Assembly (NCBI GenBank): GCA_964035545.1
Contig: OZ037765.1
Location: forward strand, 33,045,004-33,109,003
Reading direction: 5' to 3'
Source of the DNA: Bugula neritina
Taxonomy: Eukaryota > Bryozoa > Gymnolaemata > Cheilostomatida > Bugulidae
Length of the DNA: 64,000 bases
The notes under the pieces were generated by a model that was not told the origin of the DNA, did not search any database, and worked only from the letters and a program-made list of their open reading frames with translations. Positions within the stretch are counted from its first letter, which is position 1. Each line of letters begins with the position of its first letter. Position numbers and translations under genes: made by a program. Positions 19,566-62,481 of the stretch are shown here, in pieces.

Positions 19566-19587
19566 ATGGAGGAAGACACTTCTGAAG
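19566..19587 (+). CDS. Putative first coding exon of the large receptor gene
   Basis: ATG GAG GAA GAC ACT TCT GAA G followed by the donor GTACTC. It ends in phase 1, and the exon at 23848 begins in phase 1, so the join gives a sensible acidic N-terminus (MEEDTSEE). The weak donor and the 4.3-kb intron make this tentative; translation could instead start at the in-frame ATG at 23895. Confidence 0.45.
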
Positions 19588-22500: not shown

Positions 22501-25500
22501 TTATTTAGTGTAATGTCATATCATGCTTTCTTACAGTATATATTATGACTCAGAAACAGTCTGCAGTTGTTATTTCTTGTATGATAGTCTCTTTGGCCTT
22601 GGGTTCCTAAAGTTCCAGACCATGTCTTTGCAGGTAGACTACATGTTTGTAGGTCTTATTTTACTGACGATGTAGCTTTATTTTCATTTAGTGAGCCAGT
22701 CTAGCTTACAGCGACCATTAACTTACTTTGCTAGCTCTGCACTTAGTGTTGAAGTGAGCCTGAGAATATACTGAAGTTCTATGTCAGTCAGCTTCACAAT
22801 AACTTTGTGACCAATTTCAATACGTTTCTATTGAAGACACAGCAATAAATACATCTTTAATCAGTGCTTATATATATTTTGGTTGCATAACTTCTTCTTA
22901 TGTGAAGTTCATATATAAAAAGAGATAGATTATTATAGACTTTTAGCCGCAAACATAGAAACTGTTAGATTTCACAAAAGGATGTATAAAAAACTTAGGG
23001 AGGGGTATTAAAATAAGCCTTTACAGACCTGTAGATTCATACCTTAATTAAGCTATATATATAGGTTTGAATTCTGGATTACTTAAAAACATCGGAAGAG
23101 TTTCAGATTGACTCCATCAATATGGTTGTTGATCTACTATGCATGATAGGATATCAATGAAAATGTTAAAACATGGTAAGATTGAAGCTCTGTTGGTAAA
23201 AGTATCAACTGTTCTGGGTGAATCATACCTTTAAGTTGCAAAATGTAACAAAATACGAACTGCTTGGTAAATTGTGTGGCAGTCAACCAAGCTTTGTTTA
23301 CAGACCAACTCGAATGCTCTCTTTTCAATATGTTTACTTTCTCTACCAGATCCCTTGATGGTTACAAATGGCTGCTAATTAAAAATAATAATTAAATTAT
23401 TACATAATTTTAAAAATAATTGCACTATAGATAGAGTAAAATAATCATCCTTGCAATTAAAAACATTCACAATAGTACTGCCTGATTAAAATGCTTGTCG
23501 TGGGTACAGAGCTGATCGTTATGAGTTTATCATATATACTGGAAGGTATACTTTGTACATAACTGACTTCAAATACATACTCTATCAGATCATAAATTCT
23601 TTCAACTAATTACAAGAAATGATTGGTAACTACTGCTGCACCCAACCAAATGGGTTTGACAACTATTTAGATATCTAAGATGATGAATATACATGAAGTA
23701 GACGGCACTGTATCCCATCATTTCTTATTATTCAACCTGCATTAACTGTCTGCAATAACACTGTGTTGAAAAGAAATGGCATAACCACAAATTAAGCTAC
23801 AGCATCTGTATGATATTATAAATGCTATCTATAATTTCTTGATCCAGAGAGTCTCAGAATCTGGTTTAGACATTCTGGAGAGAATCCTGTAGACATGGAA
23901 GATGTTTGCTGGGCTGCAACCAAATCATATACTTTGAGTGAAGTGAAGACTCAAGTTGGGAGTTATCAACTCACTCACCTCAAGTTAGAGAAGAAAATTC
24001 CTAAGAATATAGGAGAGATTGCTTCACATGCTGTTTGTTTGGTATTCCGTAATATGACTGACAAGGAGAGTCTGAATAAGTGAGTATTTAGTTGAGTATA
24101 TCTGAGTCAGACAACTCACACATATTGTATGATTTCAAGATGAATATGTTGATGACTCCTAAAAAGTTGTACTGTACATTATGTAATGCGATATTAAGAG
24201 TTGAATACACAGCAATGATATGATGTATATATTGTAACAATAACTTATATTCTTCTCTGATTGTATGTCTTTATATTGTATTTTTATATTACAGTATTAG
24301 TCAGCTGACTCAGTTAGAGGAACTAGACATAGGATACAATCCTCTCAACACAGTACCAGATGTTGTGTCATCACTCACATCACTCAAACAGTTGTATATG
24401 AGTGGATGTAGAATATCCAGTCTACCTGAGAGGTTTGTGTGTCACATGTTTATTATTTCTTCTTAACATCATACCCATCTCCCTTTAAAATATATTTATA
24501 CATAACTATTAGTATATAAGATATGTACAGGTTATAAATGTGTAGGTAAAAATTTGTATACCCACCTTAAGGTTTTGATAAAATACAATGAGATGGAAAA
24601 GGTGGAGTGCATCATGAATTGAAAAGCCACCCTCTCTCATGAAAAAGTGAATTATAATTTCGTTTTACTACTGTATTGAAATACCACAGTACTCCCTAGC
24701 TATAATGTAAAATAATATTGCTAAGCATTTTGCTAAAGGTTTCATCTGGAAAGAATACTTATAGATATAGAATATTATTGAAGAAAACAATGGTCTATAG
24801 GGGTTTGAGCTCGACAAAGGCTATTGATGATGTTAGGAAGACTATACCCAGTCATAATTGCTCCTGTGCCTCATGTGAATAAGTCCATAGCCCCATTTAA
24901 CAAAAACTCCTTTCATCAGGGATTTTCTCACAGGGATGATGATTAAATTTGCATCAGTTTTATTTTTAAATAAAATAATAGAATTATTTGTTATATAAAG
25001 CGATAACAGCTACTAGTGATATAATTTGTTACTGATCACTATCAAATCAAATGGTATTCATTATTAAATGAAACAAGTTAAGGTAAAATATCATGAGGAT
25101 TGCAAAAATATTTTTGTTTTATTGTTAGAATTTTTCAGGACTGTAAACTGCTGCATGATATTTTATTCTCTTCCTGTTGTAAATTTTTATATCATATTTT
25201 TATATTACAGTCTCTCCCAGCTGACTCAGTTAGAGGAACTAGACATAGGATACAATCCTCTCAACACAGTACCAGATGTTGTGTCATCACTGACATCACT
25301 TAAACAGTTGGATATGAGTCACTGTAGAATATCCAGTCTACCTAGGAGGTTTCTGTGTCACATGTTTATTATTTCTTCTTAACATCATTACCATCTCCCT
25401 TTAAATTATATTTATACATAACTATTAGTATATAAGATATGTACAGGTTATAAATGTGTATGTAGGTAGAATTTTGTACCCACCTTAAGGTTTTGATAAA

Positions 25501-28500
25501 ATACAATGAGATGGAAAAGGTGGAGTGCATCATGAATTGAAAAGCCACCCTCTCTCATGAAAAAGTGAATTATAATTTTGTTTTACTACTGTATTGAAAT
25601 ACCACAGTACTCTCCGGCTATGATGTAAAATTTTATTGCCACTAAGTATTTTGCTAAAGTTTTCATGTTGAACGAAGACTAGATATAGGATAATATTAAA
25701 GAAAACAGTGGTCTAGAAGCGTTAACCCTGACAAAGGCCATTGGTGATGTTAGGAAGACTACTCAGTCATAATTGCTCTTGTGCGTCATTTAAATAATTC
25801 CTTAGCCCAATTTAACAAATATCCTTCCCACCGGGTTTTTCACAGGGATAGTGACTATAAAGTTGCATGCATTTTACTTCATAAAAAAACAATGAAATCA
25901 CTTGTAATATGAAGTACTAATATCTACTGGTGATATAATTTGTTATTGATCAAATCGCATTCATTTTATTACATGAAACAATTTAAGGTAAAATATCACA
26001 AGGATTGGAAAAAACATTTTTGTTTTGTTGATAGAGTTTTTCAGAACTATAAACTGCTGCATGATATTTCATTATTTTCCTGATGTAAATTTTTATATCA
26101 TATTTTTGTATTACAGTCTTTCCCAGCTGACTCAGTTAGAGATACTATACATACAACGGAATCATCTCAACACAGTACCAGATGTTGTGTCATCACTCAC
26201 ATCACTTAAACAGCTGGATATGAGTTACTGTAGTAGAGTTGGTCTACCTGAGAGGTTTGTGTGTCACATGTTTATTACTACTTCACAACATCACTATTAC
26301 TACTCTGTAACCTATATTTATACACAACTTATATAGTATATATAATATAACATACAGGATACAGAGTATAGCTATAGTTTTTGTACTTAGCCTGAGTTCC
26401 CTGTGTTAGATAAGGAGCTGGTAAAGGTGCAGTGTAAAAATTGGAAAAACTTTAAACCTCTTCAAATGACTATGTGCAGGATGATGAAAGGAGTTGTATT
26501 ACTTATATATGAATATGTAAGATAGTTTACAATAATGTGTAAAGTTTGGAAAAGATACCCTCTTTCTATATGACCAGAAGCTGAATTATAAATTAGGAGT
26601 TGTATTATTTACATACGAATATTTTGTGTAGTTTAGAATAATTGTATGCATTATATGTTATTAGGAATTAAATATACAGCAATAATGTGGTTTATATTTT
26701 ATATATTACCATTAAATTGTCTGTATGCGTAGGGTCACACAACGCGGGTTTTCTGCATGGGGGTCCAAATTTTAGGGCACCTGTTCTGGGAACAACTTGC
26801 CACACAATGCATGGATTGTGGGTGCGGGAGCTCATTGGCTAACGAACTTGGAGTTTAACATTACTGCTCGCCTACAGACATTTGTTTTTTAAATTTACAT
26901 CATCGGCAAAGTGACTTTCCATATTATAAAAGTGGAAATGAAAACTATATGAAACTGTTTTAATTTAGTTCGATAAAAATTAAACCTCGAATTGAAATTA
27001 AAAAAGTGTGCTTGCTAAATGGTAATTAGCCAATTACATCAAACCTACACAAGCTTTCTGCACTTCCGTCTCAGCATGTTATCTGCATGGGCACCCACAC
27101 ACAACAGCCCATTTTTGAGCTAGATGGGTTAATTCTCCCTGCATGTTGCCAGCAGGGGTCACCCGCGCCGTGTGGCTCTATGCTAAGCTGACTAAGTAGT
27201 TAGTAATAACTATGTCATAACTCATTATTCTTAGCAGTGAATAGAAAAAAGCTGCCTAAAACCAACCAGCAGCTCTGTGCAAAAACTCTTAAAACTTTCA
27301 TAAATTATACTATGCAGACCTGTTTACTCTGAATACTTTGAAACAAAACAGCATCCTAGGTTAAACACGAATATATATTGAAAACATAGTTTAGCATGTA
27401 TTGAACCAGAACTAGTAACATTCAGTCATGACAATATTGTGTGAAAATTTTACAATCTGAAGTGAATCTGTATTATATTTATGGCATTATATCAAGTACT
27501 ATTATCCTGCTTTATTCAGGATGTTATTTTGACTGATACTCAATATTTCCCGAAAATAAAAACATGTGATATTTGACTCATACTCATATAAGTACTGCAT
27601 GTTATACTTATATTGTATGCAACTTTGTTCTCTTCTTATATTCTGTATATCTTTATGTTCTAGTGTGGATCAGCTGACTCAGTTAGAGACACCAGACATA
27701 GTAGACAATAGCCTCAAGACAGCACCAGATGTTGTGTCATCACTTAAACAGTTGAACATGAATAGATGTGGAATATCCAGTCTACCTGAAAGGTTTGTGG
27801 TCGCATGTGTATCACTACTTCACAACGTAATTATTACCTTCCTTTATAATGTATTTATACACAACTTATAGAATATAGAATAAGTACAGGATACAGGATA
27901 TAGCTTTTTATTCAAACTTTTCAGGCTTAGTCTGAGATTCCTGTATTCTACAATGAAACGATAAGGGTGCAGTGTAAATATTTATAGAGCCACCCTCTTT
28001 CTCGACTCTGAATAGAAATATTGTAGTGAATTTTAGTATTGCATTAGTTAGTTATGTTATATTGAAAGGGTAACTCTATGTCGGACTGCCGCCATTCGGC
28101 CGACAGCTTCATGTCGACAGTATCATGTCATCAGGATGGCCTGATCGTGTTGGCCAATGAAACAGGACTGACAATTGATGAGTAGGCGGAGTTTCAAACG
28201 CGTAGTGGAAGCATGTTAGACAGCTTCATCGGCAGAGTGGATCGAGTTCTAGTAATGTGAAGTTGTATGCAAATCACTCTATATTATGTAATCGTGTGTG
28301 TTAATGTTAGTAGTTTTATTTTTGTATAGTTTGTAACAATAAAGTCTATTGTAATTGTGAGAAACCTGGTGAAGTAGCTTTATATAAGTAGACCCACTAA
28401 TTATATAGTGAATCAGAAATTCACTACGGTGGTGGCAGCGGTGGGATCTTTCTTATAATAAGTGCTCCTAGCCAGGGAGTAAAACAATGGCCGACGACGA

Positions 28501-52500: not shown

Positions 52501-55500
52501 ACGTTTAAACACTGTTGCATATTAAATTATTATATTCTCAGCGTATAATAATTTATTACATCAACTCTAAAATTATATTTATCTTCTTTAAAAAACTAGT
52601 AAAATAATTATACTAGTAGTAGGAAGTGGTTGCGTTCTGGGACAACACCCTGACACCGGAGAGTCGAAGACTCGGCGGGGGAAGGGGGTTGTCCCAGAAC
52701 CAACTACTTCCTACTACTACTACTTCACAACGTAATTATTACCTTCCTTTATAATGTATTTATACACAACTTATAGAATATAAAATAATATACAGAATAC
52801 AGAGTAGCTATAGCTTAATATTTAAACTTTTCAGGCTTAGCCTTAGATTCCTGTATTATACAATGAAATGATAAGGGTGCAGTGTAAATATTTATGGAGC
52901 CACCCTCTCTCTTGACTCTGAATAGAAATATGAATGAACTTGCACTTTCCTACAAGATAACCATAAGGAAAAGATTTATTAAATGAGTTTCAATGAGAAT
53001 AAATTGTAACATAGAAGATATGATTATCCATGTGAATTTATTCTATAGCATGGATAGTTCAAATTAATCTGTAGCAACTATTACTTGGTAAGTCGTGAGA
53101 ATGAAACTAATCGTGTTAATTTACTTCATATATAGTACACTTACATTTATATTTTGGGTTTAGTATGTAAACACTTCATAGACACTAGCCTTTAGGGGAG
53201 GGTGAATAATATAAACGCACTACATACTTAAGGATAGCATAACACAACCAATCTAATTAGATGCCACTATCCAGCTGCACTTATCCAATTGCTCTCTCAA
53301 TCCACTATAATTAGTTAGTCTCCTCCTTTGTTCACAGCGTACCTTGGTAGTATAGCAATGTAAACACTAGTAGGCCGAGTGTATTAGAGACGCTAAGCAT
53401 TAGGATAACAGAATAAGGACAAGAGAGTTGTTCTTTCGATATACACAGGAGCACAACTCCTTACAATATTACTGACTCTAAGCATTACTATTGGTTAACA
53501 TTAGCTGTAATGCTTTTGTTACAAGTTGTTCTTGTTTTATAGCAGTTGTAGGTGTTATTACAGTTATACTCTTTTATTAGAGATTAAATATTATCAAGTT
53601 GAGCTATATTATGTTCCTGTAAAATCTGTTTGTAATAAAAACTTGTGTACAAGTGCCTCTCATTATAAAAAGATAATTTCATTGTTTGAAAAGTTTCACT
53701 TTTTTATTTTTTAAAGGCTTACTTTAAAAAATTCAACTTTTTCCAAAAAATCTTTCGAGAATAATTTTTTATATTAAATTCTCTATCTAACAAAAATTAA
53801 AAAGATAATTGAGCTTGAAAATGTTCTATTTACTCAAAAAAAACTCCGTTAAAGCTTCATGAATGCATGTTAGTCCACATCTTTCAAATATATATAATTT
53901 CAAACTTCCCATGGTATTTCTAAAAATTGCAAGAAACTGGACAAGTTGTTTTGGCTGAGTTGTTTTGCCTTTTAGTTTAAGTAAGCCAGGAAAAGAATAC
54001 ATTTTGTAATTAAGGTTTAATTGTTCAAAATATTTGTAAGCTTCAAATAGAAATTGGTATTTCAATAATTTTTTATTTTGCTTTTCGTTCCAATTTTCTA
54101 TTTCAACAAATATGATGCGATGTAGGTCAAATAAATTTATACGTTAAAAATTACATGCAATAGCTGATACATCTTAAAACATGCAGTTGTGACTTCCTGC
54201 CTATATCTGTATTGCATAAAATACTTTTATTGCATTTAATTTTAGTCTCTTCTCACTATGCATATCTTTATATTACAGTCTCTGTCAGCTGACTCAGTTA
54301 GAGATACTAGACATAGGAGGGAATCCTCTCAACACAGTACCAGATGTGGTGTCATCACTCACATCACTTAAGCAGTTGGATATGAATAGTTGTGATATAT
54401 CCAGTCTACCTGAGAGGTTTCTGTTTATTACTATTTTACAACATTGTTATTGCCTTCTTTTAACATATATTTATACACAGCTTATAATATATAACATAAG
54501 ATGCAGTATATAAAAGTTTAGCTCAAACTTTAGACTCAGTCTAAGTTTGTGGAAAAATGCAATGAGATGTGAAGGGCCGAGTGTAATATGATATAAAAAG
54601 TTATCCTATATCGCTAGATAAAGGTGGATTATTATTTTGTGTCTACTGCACTATTGAAATACTACAGGATCTCAGCTATGTAAAATTCTATACTAGGTAT
54701 TCTGCTAAAGATTTCATGAAGAAAGAATATTAGTTATAGAATATTATTAAGGAAAGCAATGACTTATATGAAGTACTGGTACCATCTCACAACTGTATTT
54801 TGTTACTCACTATTATACATCGAGGGATGGTATTTGTATTACTAAAAGAAAGAATTAGGGATGACAATATATCCTGACAATTTAAAATCCATTTACTGTT
54901 TCATTGATAATTTTTTTACAAACTAGGAATCATTGTTATATAATTCTTTATTCTTTTGCTGTTGTATGCTTTGTATTACAGTCTCTCCCAGCTGACTCAG
55001 TTAGAGAAACTAGACATAGGAAACAATCCTCTTAACACAGTACCAGATGTTGTGTCATCACTCACATCACTTAAAGAGCTGAAGATGAATAGTTGTGGTA
55101 TATTCAGTCTACTTGAAAGGTTTGTGTGTCGCATGTTTATTACTACTTCACAATATCATTATTACCTCACCTAGCAGTATTTATATTCAACTTGTTGTAT
55201 CTAAAATATAATATACAGAACACATAGAGTAGCCATATTCTGACTGTCCTGTGTTATACAATGAAATAGTTAAAAGAGTAGAGTGTAATATAGAAATCCA
55301 CCCTTAAGCATGGTCATGGATTAGAGCCAATGCCAGGATATTATAGTGATAAAATATTCAGTCATTTATAAAAAACACAACATATTTATTCTTGAAGTAT
55401 CACGGTGCCGTATATAAAAGTTTATATTTATGCAAGTATTTTGTTAAGCATTTGATAAACATATATATTCCCTAGAGTTAGGGGTACATGACTATGACTG

Positions 55501-58500
55501 TTGGTCACAGGTTAATAAATGATGAAATAGTCATAAGAAGAAGTGTGAAATTAATACCTGCAGTAACAAATAGTTATAGCATCAACTAGCTTTATTTGTC
55601 ACCCATTTTAAAAATAAAAATAACAGCCGACTCCCTAATGTATATACTATGTATAGTAATGTGGACTATATATAGTAATGTATACTATGTATAGTAATGT
55701 ATACTATGTATAGTAATGTATACTATGTATAGTAATGTATACTATGTATAGTAATGTATACTATGTATAGTAATGTATACTATGTATAGTAATGTATACT
55801 ATGTATAGTAATGTATACTATGTATAGTAATGTATACTATGTATAGTGCTGTATAATATGTATAGTAATGTATACTATATATAGTAATGTATACTATGTA
55901 TAGTAATGTATACTATGTATAGTAATGTATACTAAGTATAGTAATGTATACTATGTATAGTAATGTATACTATGTATAGTAATGTATACTATGTATAGTA
56001 ATGTATACTATGTATAGTTATGTATATTATGTATAGTAATGTATACTATGTATAGTAATGTATAATATGTATAGTAATGTATACTAAGTATAGTAATGTA
56101 TACTATGTATAGTAATGTATACATAGTATAGTGATGTATACTATGTATAGTAATGTATAATATGTATAGTAATGTATACTATGTATAGTAATGTATAATA
56201 TGTATAGTAATGTATACTATGTATAGTAATGTATACTATGTATAGTAATGTATACTATGTATAGTAATGTATACTATGTATAGTAATGTATACTATGTAT
56301 AGTAATGTATACTATGTATAGTAATGTATACTATGTATAGTAATGTATACTATGTATAGTAATGTATACTATGTATAGTAATGTATACTATGTATAGTAA
56401 TGTATACTATGTATAGTAATGTATACTATGTATAGTAATGTATACTATGTATAGTAATGTATACTATGTATAGTAATGTATACTATGTATAGTAATGTAT
56501 ACTATGTATAGTAATGTATACTATGTATAGTAATGTATACTATGTATAGCAATGTATACTATGTATAGTAATGTATGTATGATATGTAAAGTGACAAAAT
56601 GATCTACTAAGTCAGTAAACTATTTTATAAACTATGTGTATTTATATAAAGCTTTAACATTGCCTTTTTCTTAAGTAGTATAATTGGCTGAATTGCAAGA
56701 TTAGTTACTGGTGATTAGTTTACTGGCGTATTTGTATTTATATTTATATAGTATTCTGAGCCTCTCAAACCTCCAACATCTGGATATCTCTAATGAAACC
56801 TTTCAGGACAATCAGGAAACTTCACACCAGATCACATGTTTACCAGATAACTTCAGCCAATTATCTAGCTTGATATATCTTAACCTCAGTGGAAATGATA
56901 CCCTAAAAGCTCTAACACCAGAGATAGCTGACATGCCTCTATTAATGTTAATAACTACTCAGGGTTGTGAGTCATTGACTTCACCACCATATGAAGTTTG
57001 TCAACAAGGAGCAGGTGCCATCAAGCAATACTACACAGACATTAGGAATCATGACAGTGTAGAGGTTTCCATGGTAACTGTTGCTGTCATTGGTCAGACT
57101 ATGTCTGGCAAGACTAGTCTGATTAAGACACTACAGAGTACAGATAGAACCAGAGTTCTTACTCACAGAGTAGATGGTGGACTTGATGATGATACAACTC
57201 CTGTATTCAAAATGGAAGATGTTTGTGTAGATAATGATGTTCTGAGATTCATTGACTTTGGAGGTCATGAAATCTATCAGTCAACATATCGTTTTACGTT
57301 GAAGCCAAATTGTATCCCAGTAGTTGTTGTGAGTCTGGAGCAGTATGAAGACCTGCAGCATGATATTCATGGTAATGAAGCAGTGAGACGACTGTATTTT
57401 GATTGGCTGTCGCATCTCTACCTGACCTATCCTAACCTTGGACCTCCTAAACTGGTTTTGACCCATTTGGATAAAATTGATGAAAGCGAGCTTAAAGAGA
57501 TTGAAGCTAGTTTTTTTTACCACACAAATCATGTTTTTGAAACTATCAGCCACAAAGAAACTGAGAAGTGGAAAGATAACGGTGCCTTTGCAAAAATCAA
57601 GCAATTCAAAAGGGAAACCATCTTCCAAGATGCAGATATTTATAAAGTTGGAAATGTTTACTGTGAAGCTTTCATACAGCTAAAAGAAAGATTGCTGAGA
57701 GAGAGTAAGCAGTTTGTGAAAGCAATACCAACAACCTGGGTAGAAGTTGAACAAACTTTGAAAAAGTTTAACAAAGGTTACATGCCATTCCAAGACATCT
57801 TCAGCCAGTTTTCCAACAGCATTCCGTTAACCGAAAAGCAGCTTGACATCATCCTGACATACATGCACAACTGTGGCATGTTGCTCTGGTACAAAGATGA
57901 TAAGGATTTGCGTCCTTACATATTCTATCACATCCCCACAGTCACTTCACTCCTCCAAGTTCTGTTTACTCATGATGACACAGTTTGGCAGCAGCGTCTG
58001 TCAGCTTTTAGCGGTTCCACTTCAGCTTTTCAGCAACTTCTTACTCTGGATGAATACAAGTCGTTTTCTGAAGAATTTGCTTCAACAGGAATCATGCATG
58101 GTAAGCTGTTCAAACATTTGCTAAGAACTGAAACTGATTTTGTGAAGAGTCCAGCAATGAAAATTGCTGCTAAACTTTTGGAGTCATTCAGAATAATTTA
58201 TTGCTCCACGCTGCAGAATAGAGAGAAGGTTTTTATTGTGCCATACTTCTGTAAAAAGTACCTTAGTGATAGCTTACCTAGCACAGGGAGTTTTGTCACC
58301 TTTCACGCTCAACTACGTTTTGATGGTCTTTCACTACCACAGTATGCCTACCACCAACTTGCTGTGGACATGCTTAATTCTTTTTCTCAAGACTCAGACT
58401 CCATAACAGCCAGAAATAATGGAGCTCGTGTGATGGAAAAAGATCTAAAATATCAGCTGGTACATGACTACAAGTCAGGAATAGTAAACATCCGTGTTTC

Positions 58501-61500
58501 CTTTGACCCCAGTCAAGTCTGCAGAGCATGGAAAGTTCTGGTTGACATCACCAACTCTTCTATTAAATACGTTGAGACCAAATGGTGTGCATGTAAAATA
58601 GGATGCAAGTTCTTCTGCCCTCACTGTGGTCTCCAGGAAGACGCCCACCCTTCCAGACGCATGAATCCTTCTTGGGTCCAGTACCATGACAAGAGGTTGA
58701 TGTCTTCTCTTCTTCCATCCGAAGCTAAACACTTCACATGCAAGAAAGATTCTTCTGTACCTGAGTGTCTCCTCAACCCTAGTGAGTATATCATATTATA
58801 ATCAATACTAAAATGATTTTATTATGAATAATTATACTTACGGTTTATATTATGTATGGTTTTATATTTATAATTATCAAAATTTTGAGTATCTTATACT
58901 ACATATTCCTTTTCTGATTGACTATATTCACATTTTTATGCTCATGTATGCCACTAATGTTATACTAATTGAATAAGGTTTTGTTTAGTTTATAATATTC
59001 TATTATGTAATTGTACGTTTCTCCATTATTTCATCTCATTCCTTGCAGTCTCTAGCTTGTCTGAAGAACAGAAAGAAGATCTTTCAAAATTCCTTAGCAA
59101 ATATGAAAAGGCTATTCCTGAAGGTAGACAATCAACTATTCTAATACTATGTTTGTACTTGGTGTTTCCTAGAAGCTAGTTATTTATAATGTGGTGCAAT
59201 TCAAAATTATCTTTAAATGATTGCTATCATTGTTATCATGCTATTTTGTGATAACTAATAGCATTTGATAACTTTAGCGTCCTTATAGTGCTATCTATCC
59301 TATAGTACATTACTGAGCAACATTTTTAGAAAAGACTCAAGTTGAATCTGATGTCGACAGTGATCACTCTGATCATGAAGATTTCTATCTTCCTGGAGAA
59401 GACCACCATGTCAAGATGGAGGTTTCTGCAACCAGAAAAGCAGCAATCAAACGCTTATTCTATTCTAACCAGGTAACCTTGTACAATTTTTTAGTTTATG
59501 TACAATTTAGCCAGCACTAAATCTGTTTTTGCTGATAAAATGGGAGCAATCATTGCATTTACATAAAGGACGTCTTCTAAAATTTCTCAACTGATAATTT
59601 AGAATAAGCATATTAAACTCACGTGTTAATATGCTCAAGAAGTAGAACTGCACAACTGAGACATTTTATGCACTGTGGTCAATAGTTTAACCCTCATTTT
59701 GAGGTAATATTTTAAATGCACATATCTGTGTTTCCCCTAGTAGTGGTTGTTACATAACTCAAAATTGGAGTGGGGAGTTATCCCTATATCATACAACACT
59801 CTGTATTTGGGTCATTTTACTTAATTTAGTACACACTGGAAATCTCCAGTTTTTAGCTATTTTTTGCAATATAGCTCCTAATGAACAAGGGATTTTGCCG
59901 AAAAGTAGTTAAATGTCAATCAACACCCATATATTATCAAGGTTCTTTTCAATTTTAATTGATTTTCCATGTTTTTTCCTAGTTACTCAGTTAATTTTGA
60001 TTGCAGACTGTTAGGTTTTTTTTGTCACGGTCTGCCATTAAAAGTAGCTGAAAAGTTAAAAAAAACATGGAAAATCAATTGAAATTAAAAAGAACCTTGA
60101 TAATATATGGGTGTTAATTGACATTTAACTAGTTTTGGGCAAAATCCCTTGTTTATTAGCAGCTATATTGCAAAAAAAAGCTAAAAACTGGAGATTTCCA
60201 GTGTATACTAAATTAAGTAAAATGACCCATTTACAAAATATCCAACAGCGAGTGCAAGTGGTTATGTTAGTGCCACAGAAACTAAACTTGTTGAAATACA
60301 ATGGCTATGTCCTCTCAGGTGTACAGAATGAGTGAGACTGTGCGAGGAAGAGCTCTGATTATCAACAACAACCTTTTCCCTGGTTATCCTCAACTCGAAA
60401 GAACAGGTTCTGCGGTGGATGTAGCAAATACTCTAGCAGTACTGAGAGAGCTGGACTTTGAAGTTGATGTGAAACAAGACAGAACTGCTGAGGTGACTAA
60501 ATACCTTTATTATTTTATTTCCTGTAATTGACAGATCTACGAATAGAATTATATTATATGGAATATTATGTGTTGTTCACAGGAAATGCTGAACGATATC
60601 AAAGATGAAACTCAACGCCCTGACCATGAAGACTATGGTATGCATATCACTGTACTCATGTCTCATGGTGCCACCTATGGAGCTTACGGAATGTTATACG
60701 GAGCTGACCTGAAACTTGTAAAACTTCTCGATGTCTTTGATTTGCTTTCATCTGACAACTTCAAGCACATGGCTGGGAAACCTAAAGTGGTGATTTTGCT
60801 GGCTTGTAGAGAAGGTATATTTTGTATTTTATTATATAAGCATGGGCTTTTTTCCATGTTGACTGTTTAAATATCTTGATGTATACATTTTTACATCTAC
60901 ACAAAAAGTAAAAAAATCAATATTTCGATGCTCTTTAGCCTTTAAAATGACTACTAAGTGTATAAGCTAACCTGATGTATTTATGTTTTTTTTAAAAGTG
61001 GTTGCTTGCCAAATACAAATAACTTTGAAATAGTTTACAATTTATGTAACAGAAAGTTTATTAAAACAAAGTAAAGGAGAAACAGCATGATTCTAGAAAA
61101 TATAGTGTAGCCTATACATACATTATTATTTAGAAAAGAGCAAAAATTGGCTTGCAATGAAGTTGCAGCTCTTACAGCACCAACTGCTATATTATGTTAT
61201 GTTATGTAGACAACATTTTGAAGGAAATAGCGATAACAGTGTAAAGTAAGCTATTATCCATCAAACAAACAATAGATCAGCTTCTAAATGAGTTAAAGCT
61301 GTAAGGGTCTGGCCACACACTTGTGAGAATCACACGAAATCGTCTATTTTACCAAGCCTTAAGGGTTCAAACTTTACTAATAATATAAATTCCTTTGTCT
61401 TATGACATATGCAGATATATTTCATGTACCTGTAGAGAAAGTAGACACCAAACCAGAGGAAAGTTCCAATGCACAAAAGGAACGAAAAAACTTTAACATT

Positions 61501-62481
61501 GATGATATGTTGATTCTGCAGTCATGTTTTGATGGTAAGTTGATCATTCCATGACTTATTAGGAGGTTCAAAATTGGCAGATGCGCTGCATGATTAGTTT
61601 AGTTACCAAACCTTGTTTGTTCAGAGTGCTTTCTTAAGCGTTTATGCAAGACTATTATTAGTTGTTCCTCTATTTTTATATAGCTGTTCTTCATACTACT
61701 TATATTATAGGTTACATGCCACATTTTTTCAGGTCGTAAATCTATAAGAAGTGTAAACTATGGAAGTCCATTCATCAGAGAGCTGGTTAAAACTCTGTAC
61801 AAACATTCTTCTCATAGAGATCTTGTTTCTCTGTTTGACATCGTGAGTCTCATATTTTAATTTAAATGTGGTGTGTGTCATGTGATGTGTGTCACGTGAT
61901 GTGTGTCATGTGATGTATGTCATGTGATATGTTTCATGTGATGTGTGTGATGTGATGTATGTCACGTGATATGTGTCATGTGATGTGTGTCATGTGGTGT
62001 GTGTCATGTGGTGTGTGTCATGTGATGTGTGTGATGTGATGTGTGTCATGTGATGTGTGTCACGTGATATGTGATGTGATGTGTGTCATATAATGTAAGC
62101 CATGTGCAAGTGAATTTTTTGGATCTTTATTTATATATAAAAGTATCATGAAAATAAATTTTTGTTTAGATAATATACATATAACGTTATTCAACCCTCA
62201 TATACAGCCAATATAAATTATTCAAATTTCCCAGCTGATTGAACTAATGCCTTTCCAACAACTTTTTAAAATTAGAAACAAAGCTATGTATAATCATGGT
62301 GTGTCTATATAAACCATGTTGATCTTTACAGGTACAGGAAAGAGTTAAAAAGGTCACTAAAAAGTTGGCTGAGAAACATAGTCACATTGCACAGCAGGTT
62401 CCAGTTGTAACAAAGACTCTCACTGGCTTGAGAAAGGTTTTATTATTTCCTAAATGCAAAGTCTGTCCAGATACTAAGTAG
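19566..62481 (+). CDS. LRR-ROC-COR-caspase fusion receptor gene, 25 exons
   Basis: Exons: 19566-19587, 23848-24079, fifteen LRR exons (listed separately), 56752-58781, 59049-59123, 59330-59472, 60319-60492, 60583-60814, 61415-61534, 61733-61842, 62332-62481. All splice sites are GT..AG and every phase agrees, giving 5,346 nt (1,781 aa plus stop). Order: short N-terminus, about 30 LRRs, ROC GTPase, COR-like region, Cys-rich motif, acidic linker, caspase-like p20 and p10. Roco proteins are usually LRR-ROC-COR with a kinase or death domain; a caspase-like domain in that place is an unusual effector. Expected to be cytosolic: no signal peptide or membrane segment is seen. The first exon and the inclusion of every LRR exon in one transcript are inferences; the join from 23848 on and the 56752-62481 part are stronger. 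Confidence 0.7.
19588..23847. other. First intron of the large gene (or intergenic), no other gene seen
   Basis: AT-rich. Short open frames here show no family resemblance. About 20365-21725 may be a degraded transposon with imperfect inverted ends and internal AATGGGCC repeats. Confidence 0.5.
20365..21725. mobile_element. Possible degraded non-autonomous DNA transposon
   Basis: GAGGTAAGGGGACACAACGGTCAC near 20369 is roughly the inverted complement of GTGACCCCCTCCTCCTTACCCC near 21698, and CACAATGGGCC-type motifs cluster near both ends. The inverted match is imperfect and no clear target duplication was found. Confidence 0.3.
23848..24079 (+). CDS. N-terminal exon of the receptor gene, before the LRR array
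   Basis: Starts after TTGATCCAG and ends AATAA|GTGAGT in phase 2, which matches the phase of every LRR exon. It encodes a 77-residue segment with MEDVCWAATK and LTHLKLEKKIPKNIGEIA. The second half looks like an N-terminal cap leading into the LRRs. If the exon at 19566 is wrong, the ATG at 23895 would be the start. Confidence 0.65.
24295..24432 (+). CDS. LRR cassette exon 1 (138 bp, phase 2-2)
   Basis: Encodes ISQLTQLEELDIGYNPLN then a second repeat with LKQLYMSGCRISSLP: two 23-residue LRRs. Acceptor TATTACAG, donor AG|GTTTGTG. The paired copy in the 14.77-kb duplication is exon 7. Confidence 0.85.
25211..25348 (+). CDS. LRR cassette exon 2 (138 bp, phase 2-2)
   Basis: LSQLTQLEELDIGYNPLN; second repeat LKQLDMSHCRISSLPR. 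The final glutamate of the usual LPE is replaced by arginine (CCTAGGAG). The first half is nearly identical to exon 1. Paired copy: exon 8. Confidence 0.85.
26117..26254 (+). CDS. LRR cassette exon 3 (138 bp, phase 2-2)
   Basis: LSQLTQLEILYIQRNHLN; second repeat LKQLDMSYCSRVGLPE. Distinct type (C-type) shared with exons 6 and 9: IQ at the exposed strand and SRVG in place of GISS. Confidence 0.85.
26730..27180. mobile_element. MITE-like element with about 20-bp terminal inverted repeats, copy A
   Basis: Starts TAGGGTCACACAACGCGGGT and ends ACCCGCGCCGTGTGGCTCTA, an inverted pair with a few mismatches. It carries no ORF and is much more CpG-containing at its ends than the surrounding intron. 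A possible target duplication is ATGC. A second copy at 41494 sits at the equivalent position of the segmental duplication, so one insertion was duplicated. Confidence 0.65.
27664..27792 (+). CDS. LRR cassette exon 4 (129 bp, phase 2-2)
   Basis: VDQLTQLETPDIVDNSLK; second repeat shortened by three codons (VVSS directly followed by LKQLNMNRCGISSLPE). Acceptor is TTCTAG rather than TTACAG. D-type, shared with exon 10. The second LRR has only 20 residues, so the strand packing there may be irregular. Confidence 0.8.
28022..28428 (+). repeat. 5' LTR of Gypsy element 2
   Basis: Begins TGTAGTGAATTT and ends AAATTCACTACG, so its ends form a 12-bp inverted repeat. It is related to the LTR of element 1 in the same orientation (shared GGCAGAGTGGATCGAGTTCTA and ATTATGTAATCGTGTG blocks). 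Immediately after it lies the candidate primer-binding site GTGGTGGCAGCGGTGGGA. No matching 3' LTR is found downstream. Confidence 0.75.
28487..29570 (+). pseudogene. gag: Gypsy gag of element 2
   Basis: Starts MADDEDVPDQEP after AAAACA. An in-frame TAG at 28685 replaces the CAG present in element 3. The frame closes at 28966 and the capsid-like region continues in other frames (28986-29210 and 29285-29569). A CCHC-like zinc knuckle lies near 29207-29250, but a TGA and a Cys-to-Tyr change interrupt it. The basic, proline-rich end (RGPRFNPPRPRPEP) is typical of a nucleocapsid. Confidence 0.8.
29582..33250 (+). pseudogene. pol: Gypsy pol of element 2
   Basis: 29582-30472: retropepsin region with VLLDTGYTRNLLS and AILGMPFL, ended by TAA at 30470 where element 1 keeps tryptophan; the frame then continues. 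30482-31558: reverse transcriptase, with FCVDSHRLN, LPFGLTSAP and catalytic FIYLDDV. 31450-32232: RNase H (ILDTDASNHN) and the linker with HANPTLLRNVK, in a new frame. 32377-32721: integrase catalytic core with AVDLLGPM and IYSDQSAQF. 32712-32993: integrase part with GVVERNN, in a new frame. At least one nonsense and three frameshifts; all three catalytic integrase residues are still encoded, but not in one frame. Confidence 0.88.
33283..33651 (+). CDS. Proline/glutamate-rich C-terminal region of Gypsy pol, element 2
   Basis: MRGRGMAYREIEEVLPDQEG followed by PPRPP, EPAPPPVEPADMP and EEEATREEPP. Low-complexity acidic and proline-rich, conserved in all copies here, including element 1. Its function is unknown; it lies where some Gypsy elements carry a chromodomain, but no chromodomain is visible. 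Confidence 0.6.
   Translation: MRGRGMAYREIEEVLPDQEGEADVPTDPPRPPTLQEEATDTPEDRSEPAPPPVEPADMPVAPDEMVISQIHEEEATREEPPVLVKSPPPYWRHHRWWYNHQYQQILQYSWNIVSVLGRHHLI
33905..33912 (+). promoter_or_regulatory. TATA-like box before zinc-finger ORF, element 2
   Basis: TATATAAA 16 bp upstream of the ATG at 33928, preserved at the same distance in the copies at 37633 and 45513. Confidence 0.45.
33928..34850 (+). pseudogene. Zinc-finger ORF of the Gypsy element, copy A (broken)
   Basis: Same protein as the intact copy at 37656. Here the first frame runs 33928-34137; after a 2-nt length difference near 34022 the main frame continues from 34014, is cut by TGA at 34368 (CGA in copy B), and resumes to 34850. The C2H2-like CDECRRTFSTMKQLKIH is present. 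Confidence 0.8.
35181..35215. other. Hairpin-forming inverted repeat after Gypsy 3' region
   Basis: GGGGCAAGTTG and CAACTTGCCCC separated by a short loop. It is repeated near 46785 after element 3. It could be an RNA hairpin at the transcript 3' end of the zinc-finger ORF. Confidence 0.5.
35800..35937 (+). CDS. LRR cassette exon 5 (138 bp, phase 2-2)
   Basis: FSQLTQLEILNIGDNTLN; second repeat LKQLKMNRCGISSLPE. Its upstream intron (from about 35.48 kb) resembles those of exons 7 and 11. Confidence 0.85.
36710..36847 (+). CDS. LRR cassette exon 6 (138 bp, phase 2-2)
   Basis: FSQLTQLEILYIQQNHLN; second repeat LLLTSLEQLDMSYCSRVGLPE (C-type). Its donor lies inside a perfect 50-bp palindrome, and the intron downstream is replaced within 40 bp by Gypsy sequence, so its splicing may be impaired. 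Confidence 0.75.
36837..36886. repeat. Perfect 50-bp palindrome at exon/transposon junction
   Basis: Starts CTACCTGAGAGGTTTGTGTG and continues as its own exact reverse complement around the centre CACATGTG (36861/36862). The left arm is the end of LRR exon 6 plus its donor; the right arm is the same sequence inverted. Confidence 0.95.
36926..37423 (+). CDS. Proline/glutamate-rich pol tail, partial Gypsy copy
   Basis: 165 residues in one frame: an arginine-rich start, then the EREIEEVLPDQ-type and EPAPPPVEPADMP blocks, ending DFWCDMVDMLSIL. This copy shows the longest uninterrupted C-terminal end of the polyprotein tail; the matching end in element 2 is cut by a stop. Not an independent gene. 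Confidence 0.55.
   Translation: MRHGQNCTGRALTQQDRPLRSKKLARLPPMRGRGMAYREIEEVLPDQEGEADVPTNPPRPPTLQEEAADTPEDRSEPAPPPVEPADMPVAPDEMVIPQIHEEEATREEPPVLVKSPPVLATPPVVVESPVSANPPVQLDCSQRTRAPPSDLRDFWCDMVDMLSIL
37633..37640 (+). promoter_or_regulatory. TATA-like box before zinc-finger ORF, partial copy
   Basis: TATATAAA 16 bp before the ATG at 37656. Confidence 0.45.
37656..38576 (+). CDS. Zinc-finger ORF associated with the Gypsy element, copy B (open)
   Basis: 306 codons, the only one of three copies with an unbroken frame. About residue 100: a C2H2-type finger, CDECRRTFSTMKQLKIHMPQH, followed closely by a second Cys/His cluster (FCPCGVHH, LRHQRNQNC). The N-terminal third is Ser/Thr-rich. The C-terminal third has a basic patch (SRRQKKRKS) that could be a nuclear localisation signal. 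Role unknown; nucleic-acid binding is likely from the fingers. Lying after pol, it occupies the place where some Gypsy elements carry env or an accessory gene. Relative to copies A and C, two small indels near its start offset each other, so its N-terminal segment between them is read in another frame. I recognise no named family. Confidence 0.7.
   Translation: MSNAATVLEGKTEAVSADTGTTRYTDSSMGQHVSEERIDMLSDIHLSTVSDQSTTTTNQTVRQVDITELTGGPLELPQALLRRTTWTTRQTKTLIQALIGTDDNRRCDECRRTFSTMKQLKIHMPQHFTVTFCPCGVHHFYRGAILRHQRNQNCYIGHLYKIDADSYTEFRDMILLHVTDPDRRQTPLNQFPATRTTVESVSDADPQPLETTRTTLAPEVTTQPLRILMSRAGRTIEVDSPPLTTTTSFFPSRRQKKRKSPSDRTNKNTIPDQSLLTDVKKLQRRMAYVHIWSGSFHTTSENLQYG
39050..39187 (+). CDS. LRR cassette exon 7 (138 bp, phase 2-2)
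   Basis: LSRLTQLEKLDIGSNTLN; second repeat LKQLDMNSCGISSLPE. Equivalent of exon 1 in the 14.77-kb duplication. Confidence 0.85.
39966..40103 (+). CDS. LRR cassette exon 8 (138 bp, phase 2-2)
   Basis: FSQLTQLEKLDIGNNTLN; second repeat LKQLKMNRCGIFSLPE. Equivalent of exon 2. Confidence 0.85.
40875..41018 (+). CDS. LRR cassette exon 9 (144 bp, phase 2-2)
   Basis: LSQLTQLEILDIQWNHLN; second repeat LKQLNMSDCNVSRVGVPE with two extra codons. Equivalent of exon 3. The insertion keeps frame. Confidence 0.82.
41494..41944. mobile_element. MITE-like element, copy B
   Basis: Same element, orientation and intron position as 26730-27180, with scattered differences. It was copied together with LRR exons 9 and 10. 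Confidence 0.65.
42434..42562 (+). CDS. LRR cassette exon 10 (129 bp, phase 2-2)
   Basis: VDQLTQLETPEIVDNSLK; second repeat short by three codons, LKQLNMNRCGISSLPE. Equivalent of exon 4. Confidence 0.8.
42793..43198 (+). repeat. 5' LTR of Gypsy element 3
   Basis: Matches 28022-28428 at an offset of about 14,770 bp, with small differences, in the same host flank. This shows element 2 and element 3 are two copies of one insertion. Confidence 0.78.
43257..44309 (+). pseudogene. gag: Gypsy gag of element 3
   Basis: 43257-43736 is one open frame of 159 codons (MADDEDVPHQEP to NNLVLK), longer than in element 2 because the nonsense change is absent. The frame then shifts (43747-43980). At the zinc knuckle (about 43976-44020) the CxGC..H..C pattern is visible, with the same TGA as in element 2, so that stop predates the duplication. 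The proline-rich end runs from 44055 to the deletion junction. Confidence 0.8.
44310..44812 (+). pseudogene. Integrase C-terminal fragment of element 3
   Basis: VVERNNRMLRNSRRSLL and IMRAYRSTPQS in frame with the preceding gag tail, then a frame change to 44573-44812 (WVWMTSHCRR, FVGPYCVIEVML), which is the SH3-like C-terminal end of a retroviral-type integrase. That end is broken in element 2 but clean here. Confidence 0.75.
45513..45520 (+). promoter_or_regulatory. TATA-like box before zinc-finger ORF, element 3
   Basis: TATATAAA 16 bp before the ATG at 45536. Confidence 0.45.
45536..46456 (+). pseudogene. Zinc-finger ORF of the Gypsy element, copy C
   Basis: Same product as copy B. An early TAA at about 45622 replaces the tryptophan codon of copy A; an in-frame ATG at 45647 opens a 269-codon frame to 46456 that still holds the C2H2-like cluster (CDECRLTFSIMKQLKIH) and the basic patch. 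The second cluster has changed (FCPCG to SYPCG), losing one cysteine. Confidence 0.75.
47403..47540 (+). CDS. LRR cassette exon 11 (138 bp, phase 2-2)
   Basis: LSRLTQLEKLDIGDNTLN; second repeat LKQLKMNRCGISSLPE. First half like exon 7, second half like exons 5 and 8: a mosaic consistent with exchange between cassettes. Confidence 0.85.
48320..48457 (+). CDS. LRR cassette exon 12 (138 bp, phase 2-2)
   Basis: FSQLTQLEELDIGDNTLN; second repeat LKQLDMNSCGISSLPE. Identical to exon 13. Confidence 0.85.
49237..49374 (+). CDS. LRR cassette exon 13 (138 bp, phase 2-2)
   Basis: Same sequence as exon 12, from the 917-bp duplication. Alternatively an assembly duplication of the same exon. Confidence 0.8.
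50090..50480 (-). pseudogene. Parvovirus-VP1-type phospholipase A2-like protein, broken
   Basis: Minus strand. The open part (50480-50220, 86 aa) begins with a Cys-rich, probably zinc-binding stretch (CxxC, then CSQCGC), followed by LPVELH and GPGTKL, the calcium-loop-like segment of the VP1-type phospholipase A2 family. A TGA ends it at 50217-50219; the same frame then continues to about 50090 with the catalytic His-Asp pair (KHDICY), so the domain is split by one nonsense change and truncated at the insert edge. In parvoviruses this domain aids membrane passage; the role in the host-integrated element is unknown. Inactive as it stands. Confidence 0.7.
50493..51244 (+). pseudogene. A32-like DNA-packaging ATPase, frameshifted
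   Basis: Walker A GKSGCGKT at residues 30-37 and Walker B DLIIFDDLM at about residues 132-140, as in FtsK/HerA-type packaging ATPases of Polintons, adintoviruses and large DNA viruses. The first frame stays open to 51074 but leaves the family pattern after about 50940, beside an A-rich run; the expected C-terminal motif (TRGRHSN, then SQNYFKLP) appears in another frame from 50942. That frame has a TAG at 51146 and ends at TAA 51242-51244, directly before the next gene's ATG. Starts 13 bp from the divergent PLA2-like gene, so the two may share a promoter. Confidence 0.78.
51245..51735 (+). pseudogene. Small virus-like protein sharing MSVYKFG start, frameshifted
   Basis: Starts MSVYKFGEPLAKAKKENYIE; open to 51541, then the likely continuation is in another frame from 51541 to the TGA at 51733. 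The N-terminal seven residues are the same as those of the next gene, suggesting a shared assembly or attachment signal. No family recognised; a structural or minor virion role is inferred from position. Its stop overlaps the next start as ATGA. Confidence 0.55.
51732..52508 (+). CDS. Fibre-like repeat protein of the virus-like element
   Basis: 258 codons, the only unbroken gene of the insert. Residues 1-7 MSVYKFG; about 28-58 a segment of the phage tail-fibre type (TLDMGKNKI ... DPADDQDAATKTYV), seen in fibre shafts of many phages and in invertebrate virus-like elements. Residues about 58-255 are five imperfect 39-40-residue repeats, each with an NN.AIPKI-like start, a KLTVST core, a GNI..S turn and an end such as LSVNDVIT. 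This looks like a trimeric beta-rich fibre. The start is fixed by the ATGA overlap with the upstream gene. It runs into non-coding sequence 107 bp before a large hairpin. Confidence 0.72.
   Translation: MSVYKFGGSGKTQIDTKKFVLINSSSTLTGTLDMGKNKISRVIDPADDQDAATKTYVNNTSMPKTLHPNNQLTISTDDGRVIDSDLKVDNVVTKTNVSNYAVPLIQNPTKKLTVSTTSGSVEDSNLSVTDVVTTNNINNFAIPKIHPSNEKLTVSTTLGNIADSNLSVNDVITTSNINNFAMPKIQPSIGGKLSMLSSEGNIVETGISIADIITTYNINNHAIPKLQGAVGNKLVISTSNGNIIESTESQPTFPSYNV
52615..52718. other. GC-rich hairpin with 31-bp arms at right edge of virus-like insert
   Basis: Left arm 52615-52646 (ending GTTCTGGGACAAC) pairs with 52688-52718 (starting GTTGTCCCAGAAC) with about one mismatch and one bulge. The loop 52647-52687 holds a second small hairpin (GAGTCGAAGACTC) and a G-rich run. 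Much more GC-rich than its surroundings. It could be a terminal palindrome of the element or an RNA 3'-end structure. Confidence 0.85.
52931..53465 (-). mobile_element. Solo-LTR-like sequence of a related Gypsy family
   Basis: Read on the minus strand it starts TGTAAGGAGTTGTG and has ATATCGAAAGAACAACTCT, matching the LTR start of element 1 (TGTAAAGAGTT ... ATATCGAAAGAATAACTCT). About 535 bp, with TG..CA ends. It sits after GAATAGAAATA, the same flank that precedes the LTRs of elements 2 and 3. The target duplication is 3-4 bp and ambiguous. Confidence 0.45.
53466..54278. other. Intron sequence without recognisable gene
   Basis: AT-rich stretch before LRR exon 14. A 79-codon minus-strand frame (53826-54065) has no family resemblance and no splice context. 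Confidence 0.4.
54279..54416 (+). CDS. LRR cassette exon 14 (138 bp, phase 2-2)
   Basis: LCQLTQLEILDIGGNPLN; second repeat LKQLDMNSCDISSLPE. The intron after it is more diverged than those of exons 1-13, so this is an older cassette. Confidence 0.85.
54982..55119 (+). CDS. LRR cassette exon 15 (138 bp, phase 2-2)
   Basis: LSQLTQLEKLDIGNNPLN; second repeat LKELKMNSCGIFSLLE, with the usual LPE changed to LLE. Last cassette before the ROC exon. Spacing from exon 14 is 703 bp, shorter than the roughly 910-bp period elsewhere. Confidence 0.85.
55638..56577 (+). repeat. 19-bp minisatellite in intron before the ROC exon
   Basis: About 49 copies of TATACTATGTATAGTAATG, very uniform with occasional single-base variants. 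Ends 175 bp upstream of the acceptor of the ROC-COR exon. Confidence 0.95.
56752..58781 (+). CDS. Terminal LRRs, ROC GTPase and COR-like region (2,030-bp exon)
   Basis: Acceptor ATATAG at 56751 (phase 2), donor A|GTGAGT at 58782 (phase 1). Starts with three to four more diverged LRRs (LSNLQHLDIS, LSSLIYLNLSGN). ROC domain: P-loop GQTMSGKTSL (57092-57121), switch II DFGGHE (57254-57271), THLD in the G4 position (57461-57472). Then a COR-like region with VEQTLKKF, MHNCGMLLWY and KYLSDSLPS. Near the end, a Cys cluster (WCACKIGCKFFCPHC, from 58583) may bind zinc. ROC-COR units act as GTP-dependent, often dimeric switches. A 115-codon antisense frame (57281-57628) is a shadow. Confidence 0.88.
59049..59123 (+). 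CDS. Linker exon of the receptor gene
   Basis: Acceptor CCTTGCAG, donor AAG|GTAGAC. Phase 1 at both ends. Encodes a charged helix-like segment, SSLSEEQKEDLSKFLSKYEK. Confidence 0.7.
59330..59472 (+). CDS. Acidic linker exon of the receptor gene
   Basis: Phase 1 to 0. Encodes an Asp/Ser-rich stretch (DVDSDHSDHEDFYLPGED) then a basic helix (ATRKAAIKRLFYSNQ). The acidic stretch has Asp residues that a caspase could cut to release the effector domain; this is only a possibility. Confidence 0.7.
59806..60231. repeat. Fold-back inverted repeat in caspase-region intron
   Basis: Arms of about 170-180 bp: 59806-59982 and 60056-60231 are near-exact inverted copies, with a spacer of about 70 bp. Ends are TTGGGTCATTTTACTTAA and its complement. 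Probably a fold-back transposon or MITE. It lies wholly within the intron 59473-60318. Confidence 0.85.
60319..60492 (+). CDS. Caspase-like p20 exon 1
   Basis: Phase 0 to 0, 58 codons. VYRMSETVRGRALIINNNLF and GSAVDVANTLAVLRELDFEV match the first strand and helix of a caspase p20 (RGxALIINN, RxGSxxDxxxL). Ends DRTAE. Confidence 0.85.
60583..60814 (+). CDS. Caspase-like p20 exon 2 with catalytic His and Cys
   Basis: Phase 0 to 1. MSHGATYGAYG holds the catalytic histidine (codon 60664-60666) in the expected SHG context. KPKVVILLACRE holds the catalytic cysteine (codon 60805-60807). The usual QACRG reads LACRE followed by D across the splice junction: Cys and Arg are kept, but the Gln before and the Gly after are changed. 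Activity is therefore uncertain. Confidence 0.85.
61415..61534 (+). CDS. Caspase-like inter-subunit linker exon
   Basis: Phase 1 to 1. Linker with several Asp and Glu residues (VDTKPEESS), then DDMLILQSCFDG, the first p10 strand. Homologous to exon 94-279 at the window start. Confidence 0.82.
61733..61842 (+). CDS. Caspase-like p10 exon
   Basis: Phase 1 to 0. SIRSVNYGSPFIRELVKTLY corresponds to the caspase segment with the substrate-binding arginine (SxRN..GSxFIQ). Homologous to 732-841. Confidence 0.85.
61869..62095 (+). repeat. 14-bp GTGTGTCATGTGAT minisatellite in intron
   Basis: About 16 imperfect copies in the intron between the last two coding exons. It is absent from the equivalent intron of the paralogue at 842-1059. 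Confidence 0.9.
62332..62481 (+). CDS. Last coding exon, caspase-like C-terminus
   Basis: Begins in phase 0, ends TAG at 62479. QERVKKVTKKLAEKH and LRKVLLFPK form the last helix and strand of the p10 subunit. Homologous to 1060-1212. Confidence 0.85.
   Translation, partial: VQERVKKVTKKLAEKHSHIAQQVPVVTKTLTGLRKVLLFPKCKVCPDTK

Follow-up and report, generated by a model that had tools for sequence, protein, structure and literature searches.

A Bugula neritina gene family predicted to join leucine-rich repeats, a ROC-COR GTPase module and a caspase in one polypeptide

Immune sensing by intracellular leucine-rich repeat (LRR) proteins in animals is mostly described in terms of NACHT or NB-ARC switches that recruit caspases through CARD or death-fold adaptors. 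The components of NLR inflammasomes and of the apoptosome are NACHT or NB-ARC, CARD and caspase. LRRs are joined to a different nucleotide switch, the ROC-COR GTPase module, in Roco proteins. In bacteria, the C-terminal effectors of LRR-ROC(AP-GTPase)-COR proteins are of at least 24 types, a caspase among them; these proteins are multicopy and are read as counter-invader systems, and the animal counterpart named alongside them, in the portion of the source drawn on here, is DAP kinase (Kaur et al. 2021, PMC8195603). In brown algae, 111 ROCO genes from four species are described: their LRR exons are of 72 nt and phase 2, exon shuffling and alternative splicing occur, and sites under selection lie on the concave face; three of the genes encode an IPR009003 peptidase, and no caspase is named in the main text (PMC11378527). 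The brown-algal ROCO proteins are regarded as candidate immune receptors, and their genes are clustered in Ectocarpus (PMC11378527; Zambounis et al. 2012, as cited in PMC4104024). Roco proteins of Trichoplax carry CARD, death and TIR domains (PMC4104024), and some Aplysia proteins have ROC-COR joined to TIR (PMC9334734); in the sections of these two papers drawn on here, the partners of animal Roco proteins are kinase, CARD, death and TIR domains, and no caspase is reported (PMC4104024, PMC9334734). Among the matches listed in the open literature, none was, by title or opening of the abstract, about an animal ROC-COR-caspase protein. The order of LRRs, ROC-COR and caspase is thus already described in bacteria (PMC8195603), and brown-algal families of LRR-exon ROCO genes are also in print.

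We analysed a window of 64,000 nucleotides from the bryozoan Bugula neritina (contig OZ037765.1, positions 33,045,004 to 33,109,003, forward strand). An earlier note on this DNA had claimed that splice phases agree across 25 exons on the plus strand, from 19566 to 62481, and the exons, when rejoined, indeed read in one frame with one terminal stop (5346 nt; ATG at 19566, stop codon ending at 62481). The listed exon boundaries have AG acceptors and GT donors, and the predicted protein of 1781 residues comprises, in order, a short N-terminal domain, LRRs, a ROC-COR GTPase module, an acidic linker and a complete caspase (Table 1). All seven motifs quoted in that note lie where it had placed them: GQTMSGKTSL at 57092, DFGGHE at 57254, THLD at 57461, RGRALIINN at 60343, GSPFIREL at 61762, and SHG and ACR, short motifs that also occur by chance elsewhere in the window, at the positions in Table 1. 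A 2363-residue frame that apparently fused LRRs and ROC-COR in one exon was rejected as an artefact of a masked stretch that reads as N.

Table 1. Exons of the predicted gene, in window coordinates.
Feature	Position	Strand	Matches
Exon 1: start codon, MEEDTSE, ends in phase 1	19566..19587	+	
Exon 2: family-specific N-terminal domain, ~77 residues	23848..24079	+	66 matches genome-wide
LRR cassette exon 1 (two LRRs)	24295..24432	+	
LRR cassette exon 2	25211..25348	+	
LRR cassette exon 3	26117..26254	+	
LRR cassette exon 4, irregular, 129 nt	27664..27792	+	
LRR cassette exon 5	35800..35937	+	
LRR cassette exon 6	36710..36847	+	
LRR cassette exon 7	39050..39187	+	
LRR cassette exon 8	39966..40103	+	
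LRR cassette exon 9, 144 nt	40875..41018	+	
LRR cassette exon 10, irregular, 129 nt	42434..42562	+	
LRR cassette exon 11	47403..47540	+	
LRR cassette exon 12	48320..48457	+	
LRR cassette exon 13 (protein sequence identical to exon 12)	49237..49374	+	
LRR cassette exon 14	54279..54416	+	
LRR cassette exon 15	54982..55119	+	
Last LRRs, ROC GTPase and COR	56752..58781	+	Pfam COR-A, Roc; LRRK2 ROC in PDB
Linker exon s1	59049..59123	+	
Linker exon s2, acidic SD-x-SD motif	59330..59472	+	
Caspase p20, first exon	60319..60492	+	
Caspase p20, second exon: catalytic His (SHG 60661) and Cys (ACR 60802)	60583..60814	+	
p20/p10 inter-subunit linker and start of p10	61415..61534	+	
p10 exon with SIR and GSPFIREL	61733..61842	+	
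Last p10 exon and stop codon	62332..62481	+	

Searches of the window's own genome (216 Mb, 295 contigs) show that the arrangement recurs in a large family. The ROC-COR query gave at least 76 matches including that of the window (76 of 112 candidates scored), and the p20-exon query gave 133. For all 76 scored ROC-COR exons the nearest downstream p20 exon lies within 20 kb on the same strand, at a distance of 1.0-4.4 kb in 73 and of 7.5, 10.7 and 11.7 kb in the other three, and for none of the 76 does a p20 exon lie within 5 kb upstream. The 73 pairs within 6 kb compare with 0.34 on average, and never more than 17, when positions along the chromosomes were rotated 1000 times. Counted from the caspase side, with further entered ROC loci included, a ROC-COR lies no more than 6 kb upstream of 86 of the 133 p20 exons; the other 47 include both caspases that lack ROC-COR and sites at which ROC-COR was unscored. 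At least 86 ROC-COR loci (73 plus 13 distinct) have a p20 exon no more than 6 kb downstream; with every distance seen allowed, the count is 76 plus 14. The eight best ROC-COR matches are the same loci as the eight best p20 matches, all on C1 and including the window's own, and in the window's subfamily all eight members have one N-terminal exon, one ROC-COR exon and one p20 exon each. Among 41 entered N-terminal exons (of 66), 30 are followed next by a same-strand ROC-COR exon no more than 100 kb away, and the remaining 11 are not. One member of the family, the upstream paralogue (copy B, L037), has its ROC-COR exon, with one in-frame TAG, at C1:33040591-33042303 and its 3' (p10) exons inside the window, at 635-1212. 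The family shares with the bacterial proteins variable N-terminal LRRs, ROC-COR and a C-terminal effector, and differs from them in residing in the nuclear DNA of an animal and carrying introns, in having a caspase of the animal p20/p10 type downstream of every scored ROC-COR, and in a copy number far above the 11 quoted for one bacterium in the portion of the source drawn on (PMC8195603).

A pairing of this kind could also arise from an LRR-ROC-COR gene and a separate caspase gene next to it downstream, the two having been co-duplicated as a unit. The wider spacing of three of the 76 pairs fits such an arrangement, as do the 47 of 133 p20 exons without an entered ROC-COR within 6 kb, which imply that caspase exons may stand without ROC-COR, and the interval 59473-60318, the longest intron of the tail, with three AATAAA/ATTAAA words inside it. 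The junction itself argues the other way: a donor, A/GTGAGT, lies close to the end of the ROC-COR frame, the p20 exon begins at the caspase fold and has s1 and s2 as its sole leading exons, these two small linker exons stand between COR and caspase in all three close paralogues examined (B, C and D), and the order and strand of ROC-COR and p20 do not vary across the 76 loci. Compared by eye, the splice boundaries of ROC-COR, s1, s2 and p20 in B, C and D agree with the window model, the acceptor of the first p10 exon lying outside the boundaries matched. Among five divergent paralogues, s2 candidates were found in E, F, G and H and s1 candidates in G and I, with weak scores for exons so short, in order between ROC-COR and p20, and in six aligned linkers the acidic SD-x-SD motif and a later IK-x-LF are invariant. 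For the window copy vs. B, C and D, dN/dS is 0.32, 0.29 and 0.35 in ROC-COR, 0.35 (s2 only), 0.30 and 0.48 in the linker, and 0.36, 0.25 and 0.25 in the caspase. For C vs. D the values are 0.39 in ROC-COR, 0.91 in the linker and 0.17 in the caspase, and for s2 alone in the window copy vs. D the value is 0.99; the linker, with the highest values, which rest on few changes, is thus the loosest part, as expected of a linker. The claim of a single-gene fusion is strongly supported by the linker exons in paralogues, the fixed order and strand at all 76 loci, the complete set of N-terminal, ROC-COR and p20 exons in all eight members of the window's subfamily, and signs of purifying selection to either side of the junction. 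We conclude, with high confidence for a reading of genomic sequence, that ROC-COR and caspase are fused in one gene, and we consider two co-duplicated genes very improbable.

The module N-terminal to this junction has the features of a Roco protein; that is, ROC is followed by COR, and the window copy has the P-loop GxxxxGK[ST], DxGG and T[HK]xD motifs (GQTMSGKTS, DFGGHE and THLD). In Pfam searches, COR-A (37-38 bits, E 3e-9, cut-off 35.3) passed the cut-off, but Roc in the window copy did not (21-22 bits, E 3.5e-4, cut-off 27); in relatives with open frames of 460-733 residues, Roc scores 34.9-39.4 bits. The nearest solved sequences to the window's ROC in a PDB search are LRRK2 ROC domains (best E 3e-4). 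In a scan of 30 loci, DxGG is present in 13 of 13 distinct family segments and THxD in all 12 that reach that position, the 13 segments having been picked out by a pattern of which the P-loop is a required part and a narrower pattern having caught 11 and 1. Pfam scans of the 1010-residue tail and the 177-residue N-terminal piece of the window protein, a scope that lies on either side of the middle LRR exons, found no protein kinase, NACHT or NB-ARC domain. Six relatives of the ROC-COR part in the protein database (81, 83, 76, 38, 37 and 29% identity) are 617-680 residues long and have no caspase domain listed, and a search of GTDB genomes and viral contigs with the ROC-COR alignment gave no relatives. 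With other animal Roco proteins (LRRK, DAPK1, MFHAS1, and those of Trichoplax and Aplysia) the family shares an LRR-ROC-COR core and partner domains of immune type.

The five caspase exons, when joined, match positions 1-229 of 233 of Peptidase_C14 (143.8 bits, E 9e-42), whereas a single caspase exon matches part of the domain only (47.9 bits); a near-complete match that appears only once the exons are joined supports the splice model. In the PDB search the caspase part aligns to animal caspases across p20 and p10, and the 60 best of its 178 matches are all named caspases or synonyms; a search of the protein database with this part gave no relative. The window copy keeps both catalytic residues, His (SHG) and Cys (ACR), and the substrate-pocket arginines also seem to be present, in RGR and SIR, which we take to be these arginines from positions as in caspase-3. 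The canonical caspase pentapeptide is of the QACRG type. In the window copy it is LACRE, and with Leu in place of Gln the chemistry of the S1 pocket may differ; across the 76 p20 exons that are paired with ROC-COR (the window's and 75 others), the Gln position holds E in 38, Q in 18, H in 12, V in five and L in three. The catalytic His and the Gly next to it are present in all 76, and the Cys in 65; in the other 11 it is replaced by Ser (nine), Ala (one) or Tyr (one, possibly an exon end). The altered pentapeptide and the 11 members that lack the Cys, including nine with Ser that are all on chromosome C6, could mean that many members have lost protease activity and that the caspase domain serves mainly as a scaffold or decoy. 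That reading, which we consider improbable, sits poorly with the retention of both catalytic residues in 65 of 76 members, the window copy among them, and with a caspase dN/dS of 0.17-0.36 over the four pairs compared; an active protease remains the reading that we prefer. The nine Ser members (L094, L099, L101, L106, L107, L113, L115, L121 and L122) have ASSG or ASSE, an intact His and an open frame, and would be either inactive caspases or enzymes with an unusual nucleophile. Three weak gasdermin-like N-terminal matches (27-32 bits) lie at C2:4312189, 2048552 and 4286293, and their products are possible, weakly indicated caspase targets.

The LRR array is predicted to be encoded in 15 symmetric cassette exons, all in the same phase and with two LRRs per exon (138 nt in 12, 129 nt in two and 144 nt in one), and continues with further LRRs in the ROC-COR exon. 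A genome search with a cassette listed at least 150 matches (150 of 825 first-look candidates scored). The family shares with brown-algal ROCO genes an expansion of LRR-ROC-COR genes, tandem phase-2 LRR exons and, as the variability described next suggests, selected sites on the exposed, concave LRR face, but the brown-algal exon is of 72 nt and encodes one LRR, and the exons here, of 129-144 nt and two LRRs, are not of that type. Variability was assessed in 15 cassettes of the window and six of copies B and C, with copy D giving none under the filter used; the comparison kept the 18 of standard form and left out the other three. In ten exposed beta-strand columns, picked from the general LRR motif, pN/pS is 1.26, vs. 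0.59 in the other 38 columns, for 18 cassettes that are related and non-independent. A mean pN as high was obtained in about 26 of 100000 random ten-column draws (column randomisation, p about 0.0003), and strong variation is also present in some columns outside the chosen ten. Because the LRR pairs are non-independent, the variability is a pointer to diversifying selection and not a proof of it. LRR exons 12 and 13 lie about 0.9 kb apart, and their identical protein sequence suggests a recent tandem duplication.

The window also contains mobile-element-like sequences and other open reading frames (ORFs). Retrotransposon-like copies are present at 13.4-18.6 kb (minus strand), 28.5-33.6 kb (plus) and 43.2-45.2 kb (plus); the first two have a reverse transcriptase domain, and the last two sit between LRR exons. 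Three copies of one ORF, at 33.9-34.9, 37.6-38.6 and 45.6-46.5 kb, one of which gave a weak C2H2 zinc-finger match when scanned, seem to have been carried along by segmental duplications of LRR exon blocks. At 50.2-52.5 kb, inside the gene, there is an intronless ORF cluster in which one ORF, with a P-loop, gave weak ATPase matches including poxvirus A32 and another gave a weak phage tail-protein match; the cluster looks like a virus-like or mobile element.

An exon-wise search of the genome for the components of the NLR route gave one partial match for NACHT, none for NB-ARC, four for CARD and 176 for the caspase family, in places several per gene; the search is of limited power and had no animal positive control, so that scarcity of NACHT, NB-ARC and CARD is suggested, not proven. 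With the NLR inflammasome and the apoptosome the family shares sensor repeats, a nucleotide switch and a caspase output, and it differs from them in that a ROC-COR GTPase replaces the STAND ATPase, the protease is in the same chain and there is no CARD step. An NLR-like logic, which we propose for the fusion protein by analogy, gains from both LRR variability at the exposed face and the scarcity of NACHT, NB-ARC and CARD. In the same assembly, comparison of mitochondrial cox1 (C295) with bovine cox1 fits best with AGA and AGG as Ser, ATA as Met and TGA as Trp (code 5); this code indicates a bilaterian invertebrate, and a sponge as the source was rejected because of it. A nuclear cox1 copy at C6:11174072-11175412 scores nearly as high as the mitochondrial gene. 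Contigs C17, C65 and C196 and many small contigs, such as C58, C90 and C99, carry further cox1 genes or match Ras-type GTPases strongly, and are possibly foreign DNA.

The dN/dS values, the P-loop, DxGG and THxD motifs and the catalytic His and Cys count in favour of a conserved function, and the number of genes and the LRR variation point to non-self recognition; an immune function of the family is putative. We regard it as probable that the window encodes a single-chain sensor-switch-protease receptor from a lineage-expanded family, with a mechanism drawn from known Roco and caspase biology. According to this mechanism, a ligand would bind at the LRR face, binding would alter the nucleotide state of ROC-COR and COR-mediated dimerisation, dimerisation would bring two caspase domains together, and the caspases would process themselves by cleavage in the acidic linker and then cut downstream proteins, with cell death or inflammation-like signalling as the output. 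Such a protein would be an inflammasome in one polypeptide, with no need of CARD adaptors.

Allorecognition is also served by large variable families, and the single-chain receptor could instead act in self/non-self (allo-)recognition, in development or in stress-induced apoptosis, not in pathogen defence. Caspase activity would fit any regulated death, and the present data hold no tie of the family to infection. In the other direction, expansions of Roco and LRR genes elsewhere are read as candidate pathogen receptors in the portions of the sources drawn on (PMC11378527, PMC8195603), and the scarcity of NACHT and NB-ARC leaves a pathogen-sensing niche open; we therefore consider a role outside pathogen defence rather unlikely, and favour a receptor in immune sensing. 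More tentatively, and as a possibility that we hold with some doubt, Roco-caspases may have replaced NLRs and the apoptosome in this lineage, with at least 86 single-chain inflammasomes as the main intracellular recognition repertoire, LRR specificities diversified by duplication of two-LRR exons, and NACHT, NB-ARC and CARD dwindled.

If the proposed reading is true, another GTPase would have been recruited in animals for the same immune-sensing task, and the LRRK2-type ROC-COR switch, which is poorly understood, would gain a directly readable output: that is, proteolysis. The family would then provide an animal parallel both to the brown-algal receptors built from LRR exons and to the bacterial defence proteins whose domains stand in the same order.
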